Positions 2,580 through 52,320 of a stretch of DNA of 54,680 nt are shown here, piece by piece (positions within the stretch are counted from its first letter, which is position 1; the number at the start of each line of letters is the position of its first letter). The DNA lies in the NCBI GenBank assembly GCA_030266395.1, contig JAJDHX010000004.1:1-54680 (forward strand). The letters run 5' to 3'. The notes below the pieces were generated by a model, which had not been told where the DNA came from, made no database searches, and worked only from the letters and a program-made list of their open reading frames with translations. The DNA comes from Selenomonadales bacterium OttesenSCG-928-I06. GTDB lineage: Bacteria; Bacillota; Negativicutes; Sporomusales; Sporomusaceae. The position numbers and the translations under genes were made by a program.

Positions 2580-4259
2580 TTACTCTAAATCATAAGTATC
2601 TAAATCGCTTTCCAACGATAACATCGGTCTTACAAGATGTTTTTCAGATATATCTACAACTATAAGACATGGTGATTTTTCTTGCCAAGCTGCATCAAAA
2701 GCTGTTCGAAATTGTTCTTTTGTAACAACATTATAAGCTCTTATACCATACGCTTTAGCTAAAGCAACATAATCAACTTTTGCTTCTAAATTAGACGCTA
2801 TAAAACGATCTTTATAAAATACTGTTTGAAGTTGTCTTATCATACCTAAAGTACTATTATTAACCACAATTGAAATAACAGGTAATTTTTCTGCCGCAAT
2901 AGTATAAAGCTCTGAGCCAGTCATTTTAAATCCGCCATCACCTGAAATACTAATAGCACGTTTTTCAGGAACTGCTATTTGAGCACCAATAGCCGCAGGC
3001 AAACCAAATCCCATTGTACCAAGACCGCCTGAAGAAATAAAACTTCTTATCTTGCTTATTTTTAGATTTTGAGCACACCACATTTGATGCTGACCAACAT
3101 CAGTAGTAAATATGGCTTCACCATCAATGTTGCGAGAATTTATTTCTTCCATTACCCAGCAAACATTCAATTCGTCATTATCTAAACCATCATTATTTTG
3201 AGATTTTGTTTCTCGAATTTTTTCAAACCAATCACTATGATCCCTTGGTTCTATATATTCATTTAACTTTTTAACTATATCAACTATATCGCCAACAAGA
3301 CCATATTTTATATTGACGTTTTTCTTTATCTCTGCCACATCTATATCTATATGAATTATCTTCTTGCCAGCAGCATAGTCTTTCCTGTTTCCTGTTATCC
3401 TGTCATTAAATCTACTGCCAATTACTATTAAAACATCAGCATTATGAACAGCACGATTTGCACACTTCAAACCATGCAGGCCTGTCATGCCTATATAATT
3501 TGGACCTGTTGTTGGATAAGAACCCAAACCCATCAGAGTACTTACCACTGGAATATTGCCATGTTCAGATAAATATTTTAATTCTTGATCCGCATTTGCC
3601 GAAACCACACCACCACCTGCCAAAATCACAGGCTTTTTAGCTTTGTTTATAATCTGGGCACTTTCCATTATCTTATCTTGAATTCCATTGGAACTTAAGA
3701 TGCGTTTTTTATAAATATCATCCTTCAATTTTCCCCAAAACTCTTCAGGAAAATCATATTCAGCAATCTGAATATCTCTAGGAATGTCTACTAAAACCGG
3801 GCCTGGACGGCCATGTTTGGCAATTGAAAATGCACTTTCAATAATCTGAGGCAATTTTTTAATGTCGTTTACTAAAAAATTATGTTTAGTTATAGGAAGT
3901 GTTATCCCAGTTATATCTATCTCCTGAAATGAATCTCTCCCTATAAGATCTGTTGATACTTGTCCTGTAATAGCTACTAAGGGAATAGAATCCAAAAAAG
4001 CATTTGCTATTCCTGTTACTAAATTAGTTGCTCCAGGACCAGATGTCGCAATACAGACACCTACTTTACCAGATGCTCTTGCATATCCATCTGCACTATG
4101 AGCAGCACCTTGCTCATGCACAGTTAAAACATGGCGAATTTTACTATCATAGAGAGCATCATAAAAAGGCAAAATTGCACCACCAGGATATCCAAATACT
4201 ATATCAACACCCTGTCTTTCAAGACATTTTACAATAATTTGTGCGCCTGACAGCAACAT
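2580..4259 (-). CDS. ilvB: Acetolactate synthase, large (catalytic) subunit
   Basis: This thiamine-diphosphate enzyme condenses two pyruvates to 2-acetolactate, or pyruvate with 2-oxobutyrate to acetohydroxybutyrate, as the first common step to valine, leucine and isoleucine. At 559 residues it has normal family length. The N-terminal TPP-binding domain holds the activating glutamate E49 in HEQGAAHSADGYARA. The central FAD/NAD-like domain contains GSRFNDRITG, and the C-terminal domain has the GDG...NN metal/TPP motif (SGDGGFKMTG to VVNNS). It is the last gene of the operon, eight bases after leuB, and the regulatory subunit ilvN is the first gene, about 4 kb upstream. Pyruvate-specific catabolic AlsS is an alternative, but the operon context argues for the biosynthetic enzyme. 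Confidence 0.96.
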   Translation of the reverse strand: MLLSGAQIIVKCLERQGVDIVFGYPGGAILPFYDALYDSKIRHVLTVHEQGAAHSADGYARASGKVGVCIATSGPGATNLVTGIANAFLDSIPLVAITGQVSTDLIGRDSFQEIDITGITLPITKHNFLVNDIKKLPQIIESAFSIAKHGRPGPVLVDIPRDIQIAEYDFPEEFWGKLKDDIYKKRILSSNGIQDKIMESAQIINKAKKPVILAGGGVVSANADQELKYLSEHGNIPVVSTLMGLGSYPTTGPNYIGMTGLHGLKCANRAVHNADVLIVIGSRFNDRITGNRKDYAAGKKIIHIDIDVAEIKKNVNIKYGLVGDIVDIVKKLNEYIEPRDHSDWFEKIRETKSQNNDGLDNDELNVCWVMEEINSRNIDGEAIFTTDVGQHQMWCAQNLKISKIRSFISSGGLGTMGFGLPAAIGAQIAVPEKRAISISGDGGFKMTGSELYTIAAEKLPVISIVVNNSTLGMIRQLQTVFYKDRFIASNLEAKVDYVALAKAYGIRAYNVVTKEQFRTAFDAAWQEKSPCLIVVDISEKHLVRPMLSLESDLDTYDLE

Positions 4260-31770: not shown

Positions 31771-31803
31771 TTCTCAAGAAGCATTTAGCTTCTTGAGAAT
31801 TTT
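31771..31803 (+). terminator. Terminator after pth
   Basis: TTCTCAAGAAGC and GCTTCTTGAGAA form a perfect 12-bp stem with a five-base loop followed by TTTTA. Confidence 0.85.
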
Positions 31804-35224: not shown

Positions 35225-35249
35225 AAAAACCTAGTATAACTAGGTTTTT
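35225..35249. terminator. Bidirectional terminator
   Basis: AAAAACCTAGT and ACTAGGTTTTT form a perfect 11-bp stem with a three-base loop between two converging genes. Confidence 0.85.
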
Positions 35250-38375: not shown

Positions 38376-38690
38376 GTGGCACAACAAAGTAACCAAACAA
38401 GCCAGTCTTCTCAACAAATGTCAGGACAAAATACATCTTTATCTGATAAAGATATACTGCAGCTATCTTTAACTTGTTTTAAACATATGGCAAGTTCAAT
38501 AAATACTTTTGCTTTAGAATCAAGCGATAACACACTAAGAAGAGATTACTTAAGCGTCTTGGGAGAAGTTCAAGGTGCAGGCAAACAATTATTTGATCTA
38601 ATGAATCAAAAAGGATTCTACAATGTTAAAAATGCAACTCCGCAAGATATTAATCAAACCAGATCATCTTTTAGCCAACAACTATCATAA
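38376..38690 (+). CDS. CotF-like spore-coat family protein 2
   Basis: This 104-residue protein resembles the Coat F domain: LSDKDILQLSLTCFKHMASSINTFALESSDNTLRRDY, then GKQLFDLMNQKGFYNV. A Gln/Ser-rich N-terminal tail precedes it. The start is probably GTG 38376, six bases after GAGGTG; the upstream in-frame GTG 38367 lies inside that site. A terminator follows. Paired with the 65-residue gene before it, it may form a heteromeric coat or ferritin-like helical assembly. Confidence 0.8.
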   Translation: MAQQSNQTSQSSQQMSGQNTSLSDKDILQLSLTCFKHMASSINTFALESSDNTLRRDYLSVLGEVQGAGKQLFDLMNQKGFYNVKNATPQDINQTRSSFSQQLS

Positions 38691-38694
38691 TAAG

Positions 38695-38723
38695 AAAAGA
38701 GAGGATAATTCCTCTCTTTTTTT
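38695..38723 (+). terminator. Terminator of the CotF-like pair
   Basis: AAAAGAGAGGA and TCCTCTCTTTT form a perfect stem with a four-base loop, followed by a T run. Confidence 0.85.
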
Positions 38724-38752
38724 ATTTTATCTATAATTTTTTATGTAATTTC

Positions 38753-44371: not shown

Positions 44372-44407
44372 AAAACCTTTAGCTTTTAAAGCTAAAGGTT
44401 TTAATTT
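44372..44407. terminator. Bidirectional terminator between the permease gene and gyrB
   Basis: AAACCTTTAGC and GCTAAAGGTTT form a perfect stem around TTTTAAA with an A run before and T-rich DNA after. Confidence 0.85.
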
Positions 44408-44408
44408 T

Positions 44409-46337
<1,929 letters not shown>

Positions 46338-46388
46338 TTATTTACACATAAAAAAATAAACTTTATTTTGCAATTTGAATTTTTATTA

Positions 46389-46631
46389 TTATAAATTTAA
46401 AGTTCTCTTCTTTAAAGTTTGAGAAGATATCGCTGAGAAATATATCTCCTTATCAGTCACAATAAAACTTTTGGGATCATTCTCAGACACATCAATTATT
46501 TTTAAATTTTTATTTTTATAAGCTTTTTTGAAATATTGGTCATTAATAGACAATTTTGAGATTTTAACATCCAAAATAGCAATAACACTTGAAAATGGGA
46601 TAATTTTGTCTATTCCTATATGTAAAAACAT
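46389..46631 (-). CDS. remB: RemA/RemB-like DUF370 regulator
   Basis: This 80-residue protein belongs to the DUF370 family. It begins MFLHIGIDKIIPFSSVIAILD, matching Bacillus YaaB (RemB), which lies between recF and gyrB there too. RemA-type homologues bind DNA to regulate matrix genes. RemB's own role is poorly known. I start at ATG 46631, after AAGGAAG; a longer reading begins seven codons earlier inside the dciA end without its own site. The tail (SSQTLKKRTLNL) is typical. Confidence 0.87.
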   Translation of the reverse strand: MFLHIGIDKIIPFSSVIAILDVKISKLSINDQYFKKAYKNKNLKIIDVSENDPKSFIVTDKEIYFSAISSQTLKKRTLNL

Positions 46632-46632
46632 T

Positions 46633-47535
46633 CTATTCTTCCTTTTTCCCAAACTTTTTCTTTAATTTATCAATAACTTCAGAAATCTGTTTTTCATTTA
46701 AATCTTCAACCTTATTTTTACTAACAAGCATAACTATAATAGCTTCAAATTCTTTGTCACTTTTATAATCTTCTGTCAGCAAAATTCTTAATAACTTAAA
46801 AAATAAAGATTTCTTTATAATATTATATTCTTCTTCACTTAACTCAAAATATCTATTCAAATCTTTATAAGAAAAATAAGGCTTTCTTATAAGAAATTCC
46901 TCAATCTTACCAGATCTATTTTGATTTAAATTTAAATTACAATTAAAACAATACTTGCTTTCTGGTGCAACTAGAGTATCACATAACAAACATTTGCTCC
47001 AACCATTTGCTTCTTTAGCTTTTTCCAAAGCTTTTTGTTTTATGATAATATAATCCAATTTACTCTTTATTTTTTTATCTTTTAATTTCTTAGTACTTTT
47101 TTTAATTTCTTCTATTTCAGAATTATTTAAAACAATTGGCTGGATAGTATTTTCCAGGATATTATCTATATTATCCTCTATTAGATATTTCTTTTTTTCT
47201 CCATAATATCCTGCACTAAAAAAAATATCTTTAACTAAATTTTCATTGATATAACTATTAATTTTCTGAATTACTTCTTTTTTCATCATCATTAAATGAT
47301 GACTCCAGGCAGAATTTTTTACTTTTAGTTTTAAAATCCCTTTATCTATAGAAACCGGAAAGCAATTCTCTGATATTTGACTGCCAACTATTTTATCCCA
47401 ACTAACCAAAACTACATTGGCATTATATTTTTTCTTTATTCCATATTTTTTAAACACTTTTTTTATAACATCTTCAAGCGGAAACTCATGGTTATCTAAA
47501 TTTTTCTTGGATTTATTATTTATATCATCACTCAT
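46633..47535 (-). CDS. dciA: DciA-like (DUF721) protein with zinc-ribbon extension
   Basis: Residues about 15-112 form a DUF721/DciA domain (EDVIKKVFKKYGI, VVLVSWDKIVGSQISENCFP, KGILKLKVKNSAWSHHLMMM), the family of replicative-helicase loaders. The rest is unusual. A basic linker of about 65 residues leads to a zinc ribbon (C182, C185, C196, C199: CLLC, then CFNC) and a helical domain ending in KKKFGKKEE. At 300 residues it is about twice the length of a typical DUF721 protein. Its start overlaps the recF stop by four bases, and its end reaches the remB start, so it is tightly embedded in the replication operon. Confidence 0.8.
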   Translation of the reverse strand: MSDDINNKSKKNLDNHEFPLEDVIKKVFKKYGIKKKYNANVVLVSWDKIVGSQISENCFPVSIDKGILKLKVKNSAWSHHLMMMKKEVIQKINSYINENLVKDIFFSAGYYGEKKKYLIEDNIDNILENTIQPIVLNNSEIEEIKKSTKKLKDKKIKSKLDYIIIKQKALEKAKEANGWSKCLLCDTLVAPESKYCFNCNLNLNQNRSGKIEEFLIRKPYFSYKDLNRYFELSEEEYNIIKKSLFFKLLRILLTEDYKSDKEFEAIIVMLVSKNKVEDLNEKQISEVIDKLKKKFGKKEE

Positions 47536-48635
47536 TCTATTACTCTACCTTCTTTTATCTTATAAAATTTAGCTGATAAATCTTTTGGGAAATATCTTTC
47601 ATCTGTAGTAGTAATAAATGTCTGTACTCTTTCCTTTAAAAAAAACAACAATTCATTTCTTCTTTTTTCATCAAGTTCGCTCATAATATCATCTAAAAGC
47701 AGTATCGGATATTCACCTGTTTCTGATTTTAAAAACTCTAATTCTGCTAATTTCAAGGCTAATATCCCTGTTCTCTGCTGACCTTGAGAACCAAAACTTT
47801 TTAAATTATAATCATTAATTAAAAATATCAGATCATCTCTGTGAGGACCAATAGAAGTAATGCCTTTATAAATATCTTCTTTTTCATTTTCTTTTAGTTT
47901 TTCATAATACCATTGTTGTATATTGACTATATCTTTAATTTCACCACTTAAACCTTGCAAAAAATAACTAATAGATAAACTCTCTTTATTTAAAGTAAGT
48001 TTTCTATGATATAAGTTGGCAATCATATTTAATTTTTTAAGTGATTCCATTCTTTTTAAAAAAATCAAAGACGCTTTTTTTACTAATTGTTCATTCCAAG
48101 CATCTAACATTTTTTTATTTTCTCTATTTTCTCTTATATTTTTTAGAAGATTATTTCTTTGAATTACTATTCTATTATAATCTAAAAGATTTTTATAATA
48201 TGAAGGACTTGCCTGAGAAATTTCATTATCTAAAAAACGCCGGCGCAATGCCGGCGCTCCCTTTACTATCAATAAATCTTCAGGAGAAAACAGAACTGCT
48301 GTTAGTGAACCTATGACTTCTTTTAATGAATAACTGTAATTATTGTATATAATCTCTTTATTTTTACTACCCATTAACCTTATTTTTAAAAGGTTTTTAA
48401 CTTGTTTTCTAAAAAACACAATACTAATTACAGCTTCTTCTTTATCCCAATTTATCAATTCCTGCTCAGAAAAAATTCTATGAGAACGAGCCATAGCTCC
48501 AAGATAAATTGCCTCTAAAAGATTAGTCTTTCCTTGAGCATTGTCACCAACAAATATATTTATATTATTGGAAAAACTTAAATTTAAATTTAAATAATTT
48601 CTAAAATTTAAAAGAGTAATAGTATCTATCTGCAT
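47532..48635 (-). CDS. recF: DNA replication and repair protein RecF
   Basis: RecF is an SMC-like ATPase that helps load RecA at gaps. Walker A is GDNAQGKT at 30-37, the signature motif region has SFGSQGQQRTGILALKLAE, Walker B is PILLLDDIMSELD, and TTTDERYF is the terminal motif. At 367 residues it is full length. Codons 127-133 (Ala-Pro-Ala-Leu-Arg-Arg-Arg) are unusually GC-rich and form a terminator-like hairpin (see 48232-48256). It overlaps dciA downstream and follows yaaA by 32 bases. Confidence 0.96.
   Translation of the reverse strand: MQIDTITLLNFRNYLNLNLSFSNNINIFVGDNAQGKTNLLEAIYLGAMARSHRIFSEQELINWDKEEAVISIVFFRKQVKNLLKIRLMGSKNKEIIYNNYSYSLKEVIGSLTAVLFSPEDLLIVKGAPALRRRFLDNEISQASPSYYKNLLDYNRIVIQRNNLLKNIRENRENKKMLDAWNEQLVKKASLIFLKRMESLKKLNMIANLYHRKLTLNKESLSISYFLQGLSGEIKDIVNIQQWYYEKLKENEKEDIYKGITSIGPHRDDLIFLINDYNLKSFGSQGQQRTGILALKLAELEFLKSETGEYPILLLDDIMSELDEKRRNELLFFLKERVQTFITTTDERYFPKDLSAKFYKIKEGRVIE
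48232..48256 (-). terminator. Terminator-shaped hairpin inside recF
   Basis: On the minus (coding) strand CGCCGGC, a five-base loop and GCCGGCG form a perfect 7-bp all-G/C stem followed at once by six T (48237-48232). It lies within recF codons 127-135. Its GC-only stem stands out from DNA that is two thirds A+T. It has the form of an intrinsic terminator, but action inside a required gene is unproven. Confidence 0.5.
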
Positions 48636-52291: not shown

Positions 52292-52320
52292 TTGACACGC
52301 CACCTAAGCTGCGATATAAT
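52292..52320 (+). promoter_or_regulatory. Consensus promoter of rpmH
   Basis: TTGACA, exactly 17 bases and TATAAT: a perfect sigma-A promoter, about 118 bases before rpmH. Confidence 0.85.

Follow-up and report, generated by a model that had tools for sequence, protein, structure and literature searches.

A conserved terminator-like hairpin in the recF reading frame of Negativicutes

Does a hairpin with the look of a transcription terminator lie inside the reading frame of recF by chance, and if not, what might it do there? The question arises from a 54.7-kb stretch of DNA, hereafter the window, that belongs to a 1.33-Mb genome bin, 72% complete, and carries on its minus strand the gene order dnaA-dnaN-yaaA-recF-dciA-remB-gyrB. 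The host gene of the hairpin is a clear recF (47532–48635, minus strand; TIGR00611, E 9e-104, 347 bits against a cut-off of 172). Downstream of the hairpin on the same strand lie a dciA/DUF721 gene (46633–47535), named from its place in the gene order and from a weak NCBIfam match that falls short of the curated cut-off, remB (46389–46652; NF046065) and gyrB (44409–46328; TIGR01059), which is the last gene before a strong terminator (44372–44402) whose stem core lies 11 nt beyond the stop codon. The window's only candidate promoter before gyrB is TTTAAA-17-TATAAT (46388–46416, minus strand), a consensus-level match (10/12) from a consensus scan that falls between the hairpin and gyrB. Elsewhere, a perfect TTGACA-17-TATAAT match is found upstream of an rnpA-like gene (52292–52320, plus strand).

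The hairpin in the recF of the window

Read on the sense (minus) strand, the site is GGGAG-CGCCGGC-ATTGC-GCCGGCG-TTTTTT-AGAT. As the preliminary description had it, a perfect stem of 7 bp, all G/C, closes a loop of 5 nt (CGCCGGC-ATTGC-GCCGGCG, 48238–48256, codons 127–133) and is adjoined by six T (48232–48237, within the codons CGT TTT TTA). Codons 127–135 are GCG CCG GCA TTG CGC CGG CGT TTT TTA and encode A127 P128 A129 L130 R131 R132 R133 F134 L135. The stem-loop folds at -15.1 kcal/mol (z -3.5 against dinucleotide shuffles), its pair probabilities in context are near 1, and a G·U pair at G48257 lengthens it to 8 bp. The preceding GGGAG (48257–48261; K125-G126-A127, AAG GGA GCG) takes part in a larger structure, seen in the consensus fold of the family as well, in which GGGA pairs with the T run to give a 13-bp stem of -20.5 kcal/mol; pairing of the U-tract in this way may alter the efficiency of the site.

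The site thus has both hallmarks of an intrinsic terminator, a stable GC-rich stem-loop and, directly 3′ of it on the same strand, a U-tract (T6 in the window). Of all hairpin-plus-T sites in the 54.7 kb, it ranks second by a d'Aubenton-Carafa-type score. The remaining sites scoring above 6 are all intergenic and the further intragenic sites scoring above 0 are weak and antisense only; the recF site is the sole terminator-like site on the sense strand within any gene of the window, and the dnaA-gyrB region of most carriers has no other intragenic site of this type. A generic terminator scan, which permits G-T pairs, does not return it, probably because the T run is counted as part of the stem through its pairing with GGGA. 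Searched against Rfam, the hairpin has no family near gathering score, and it would add a conserved structured RNA that is absent from that collection. Two genomes depart from the usual arrangement: one Selenomonas (G277, locus L194) has an additional, weaker hairpin with T6 in recF at +323 to +343, and another locus (L197) is without the stem at codons 127–135 and has a terminator-like site elsewhere in recF.

The T run also creates a slippery heptamer, U UUU UUA, in frame (48231–48237, minus strand). Programmed -1 frameshifting was rejected: the hairpin is upstream of the heptamer, not downstream, and the heptamer is not conserved, with most family members having C UUU UUG. Its occurrence in the window is probably incidental.

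Conservation through synonymous codons

The structure depends on unusual codons. Among the 104 arginine codons of the seven operon genes (AGA 76, CGT 13, AGG 9, CGC 3, CGA 2, CGG 1), the single CGG is the one in the recF stem, which bears out the initial remark that CGC-CGG-CGT stands where AGA is the common choice; GCG accounts for 4 of the 107 alanine codons. Random synonymous choice at the operon's codon usage yields an 8-bp helix with a probability of about 4e-5 and a 7-bp helix with 2e-3. When recF was shuffled synonymously, the mean folding energy at the site was -5.7 ± 2.1 kcal/mol, against the observed -20.5 (z = -6.9), and the hairpin window was the strongest of 354 in the gene. The hairpin is not a product of chance.

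Relatives within the Sporomusaceae give the same picture. Together with the window, ten same-family relatives in which recF was found (Sporomusa and kin, including Sporomusa ovata, S. silvacetica and Sporomusa sp. KB1) form a set of 11, the ten RecF proteins being 58–63% identical to that of the window. The stem is kept in 11 of 11 genes, at GC3 values from 0.16 to 0.42; all ten relatives retain GCG CCG ... CGY CGG CGY TTT TTG, with U5–6 behind the stem. Each family hairpin has a z below -3.1 in synonymous shuffles and is the top window of its recF, and the variants that occur preserve pairing (G-C, G·U or A-U at the top of the stem, G·U or G-C at the bottom). In the family, no other 11-codon window of recF is as strongly conserved at synonymous sites as codons 126–136 (z 3.9).

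Across the class Negativicutes, we searched 381 genomes with a pattern that ignored third positions and the U-tract; seven rows of the resulting class-wide table derive from a separate locus set. Complete helices occur in 8 families and 16 genera. In rows not selected for having the stem, complete 8-bp helices were present in 13.9 of 50 genera, compared with 3.4 ± 1.5 when the 3′ arms were permuted among genera. Compensatory changes include CCG/CGG to CCT/AGG and G-C to A-U, with GC and UA pairs at P3:R2(1) and GC, GU and AU pairs at the helix ends; where Met (AUG) replaces Ala in some relatives, it still pairs. In 22 distinct stem holders, 97.7% of cells are paired and the covariation score (0.346, against 0.209 in shuffles) exceeds all shuffles and slides, an illustration rather than an independent test as these rows were picked for holding the stem. 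Pairing is therefore kept through compensatory changes, as in conserved structured cis-RNA. In the Selenomonadaceae, the hairpin codons form the second cluster of synonymous constraint in recF (z 3.7). The comparative sequence evidence shows the element to be a cis-acting RNA hairpin inside recF, kept by selection on synonymous codons; the original premise, that the structure rests on which synonymous codons are used for a conserved protein motif, gains strong support from the synonymous constraint, the arm permutation and the compensatory changes.

The stem is far from universal. Many Negativicutes are without it and have AGA/AGG or CGN codons at the site, and its presence and absence require at least 11 changes on the tree. 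Relatives that use AGA and have no hairpin, which the preliminary description regarded as counting against a role, thus do exist outside the family, among many Negativicutes, and not within it. Operon context was rejected as an explanation of this distribution, carriers and non-carriers having identical gene order. In a sample of 251 Bacilli genomes the stem is absent, mostly because a Ser(AGY)-Pro-Gln motif at the site breaks it, and inspection by eye of 20 genomes of the class to which locus L082 belongs found no 8-bp stem with a U-tract. One bin labelled Paenibacillaceae, outside the Negativicutes, has the full stem with TTTTTA in its recF (L075/L156; z -5.5); mis-binning, transfer or convergence are possible sources.

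Termination and its alternatives

What does the hairpin do? The best reading of the sequence is that it would tune how much transcript reaches recF and the genes downstream, and we consider it fairly probable that it works as an intragenic intrinsic terminator of partial efficiency, which reduces the amount of full-length recF mRNA compared with that of dnaA and dnaN. In the Sporomusaceae and the Selenomonas ruminantium/Mitsuokella clade, stem and U-tract together would form the intragenic terminator. Of the polymerases arriving from dnaA-dnaN-yaaA, some would leave the template about 400 nt into recF, and full-length recF mRNA and read-through to dciA, remB and gyrB would amount to a fraction of dnaN mRNA. 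Against such termination stands the fact that a stop in mid-gene makes mRNA with no stop codon, which needs ribosome rescue.

Termination is favoured by the U-run found on the sense strand immediately after the stem. T5–6 is found in all family relatives and all Selenomonas/Mitsuokella relatives (g24/g38), and Mitsuokella, at GC3 0.83–0.85, has TTT TTA at the site though TTA should be rare there. In counts that leave out loci from a scan requiring stem plus U-tract, stem and T5 are marginally associated when each genus casts one vote (p 0.05) and not significantly so on independent tree pairs; a pooled table that includes those loci is biased for the U-tract and was not relied on. Once phylogeny is controlled, the link to the U-tract is weak. 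Moreover, one lineage (f20; L016 and L198) has at GC3 0.19 a very strong stem in recF codons 127–135, with a CCT/AGG pair and about -24 kcal/mol with flanks, followed by TTCCTT instead of a U-tract, so that the hairpin may serve some purpose in addition to termination. We regard the stem as firmly supported and, because the association is marginal to non-significant and the f20 stem has no U-tract, termination at it as likely but unproven.

The same observations bear on an effect on translation. The hairpin could slow the ribosome after it has made the N-terminal half of RecF, serving folding or output, with the U-run as incidental Phe-Leu coding. This would fit a stem that is more widely conserved than the U-tract and that some lineages (L016, L138) keep or strengthen without U. 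We nevertheless think it unlikely: ribosomes normally unwind a 7-bp GC stem, and the two clades sampled best retain T5–6, even where GC3 reaches 0.85.

Ribosomes could instead govern termination. In a translation-sensitive attenuator, the leading ribosome would mask the stem, and termination would follow only if translation of recF failed or stalled, for example at rare Arg or Pro codons. The stem is indeed made of Pro and three Arg codons, and in E. coli coupled ribosomes suppress such sites (PMC5021804). The window, on the other hand, bears signs of uncoupling. Eight gene-end terminators in it start 1–26 nt past the stop codon, 6 of 8 within 13 nt (those at 44372–44402, 38689–38726, 35227–35247 and 31771–31799 start 1–13 nt from stop codons), and the purine content of the operon's coding strands is 57.7%. 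Such spacing and purine bias characterise runaway transcription, in which terminators go unprotected by ribosomes (PMC7858274, PMC13323073) and to which the Bacillota have been assigned (PMC13323073). From these marks, polymerases appear to outrun ribosomes in the window's lineage, and under runaway transcription the recF stem would release some of the polymerases irrespective of the ribosomes. A riboswitch-like or antiterminator form of attenuation was rejected, as the consensus fold of codons 95–150 has no competing conserved fold upstream. With runaway signs present and no conserved alternative fold, attenuation is improbable, and the early suggestion that the site reacts to translation of recF has become less likely. 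Because polymerases appear to outrun ribosomes, the terminator would act as a constant partial brake, not as a sensor of translation.

The stem might also act on the finished message, blocking exonucleases or being cut so as to part dnaN from gyrB messages. Conservation of the stem with or without the U-tract would agree with this, as would a conserved promoter-like site further downstream in Selenomonadaceae; a U-run right next to the stem, and only on its sense side, suits termination better, and we give processing or stability little credence. Least credible of all is a functionless by-product of the A-P-x-x-R-R-R motif and codon bias: codons for Ala-Pro and for Arg-Arg are by nature half complementary and many Negativicutes do without the stem, but the synonymous-shuffle z, the synonymous conservation, the arm permutation and the compensatory changes all speak against it.

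RecF dosage and known systems

A partial terminator at this place would hold RecF, an excess of which is toxic in E. coli, at low abundance beside the plentiful clamp DnaN. Sandler and Clark reportedly found in 1990 that sequences within E. coli recF reduce its expression at both the transcriptional and the translational level. E. coli holds about 50 copies of RecF per cell; near 700 copies, about 14-fold more, the protein is toxic through loss of the replisome (PMC10287930). In E. coli, too, recF contains the promoter of gyrB, at its 3′ end (PMC10287930).

If the terminator acts as we predict, transcription of gyrB would be renewed from promoters farther downstream. Selenomonadaceae have a conserved candidate within recF itself, a promoter-like GTGACA/ATGACA-18-TGGTATAAT on the sense strand at about +699 (+693 to +735 from the recF start in L194, about 4018–4048, and in L195, L196 and L207). 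The stretch that contains it is under the strongest synonymous constraint of the whole gene; the site lies ~300 nt 3′ of the hairpin and is present also in L207, a genome without the stem. In Selenomonadaceae, GTGACA-18-TGG-TATAAT would restart transcription toward gyrB. Tentatively, recF may hold a class-wide ancestral control point. Synonymous codons would there encode a terminator in the N-terminal half and, in Selenomonadaceae, also a promoter 300 nt further along; between them, the two would divide the dnaA-dnaN-recF and gyrB transcription units within a reading frame and keep RecF from reaching a toxic level. If this is true, a housekeeping repair gene carries a conserved brake in its own reading frame, written in the codons of a needed motif, which would explain how low-copy RecF can share an operon with an abundant clamp. 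The site would also offer a natural test of ribosome protection of terminators in bacteria with runaway transcription, and codon optimisation of recF would strip out a control element.

An intrinsic terminator and an internal promoter are each of a known kind; their place is unusual and conserved. A literature search found no paper on an intragenic recF terminator, and neither Rfam nor the literature searched contained a conserved terminator-like hairpin kept by synonymous selection in a repair gene. In E. coli, recF expression is reportedly held down from within the gene, and the gyrB promoter lies inside it; the sequence and the phylum are different. With intrinsic (Rho-independent) terminators the recF site shares the GC-rich stem, the short loop and the adjoining U-tract, on the sense strand only, and its score equals that of the best gene-end terminators of the window; unlike them, it is situated midway through an open reading frame, where codon choice maintains it. 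Partial terminators between genes set stoichiometry within Bacillus operons; the recF site would likewise lower the mRNA of distal genes relative to proximal ones but, unlike them, would truncate a reading frame. Intragenic terminators whose efficiency depends on the proximity of the ribosome have been examined under both coupled and uncoupled transcription (reviewed in PMC7858274). Like them, the recF site lies within an open reading frame; unlike those reporter inserts, it is natural and phylogenetically conserved.
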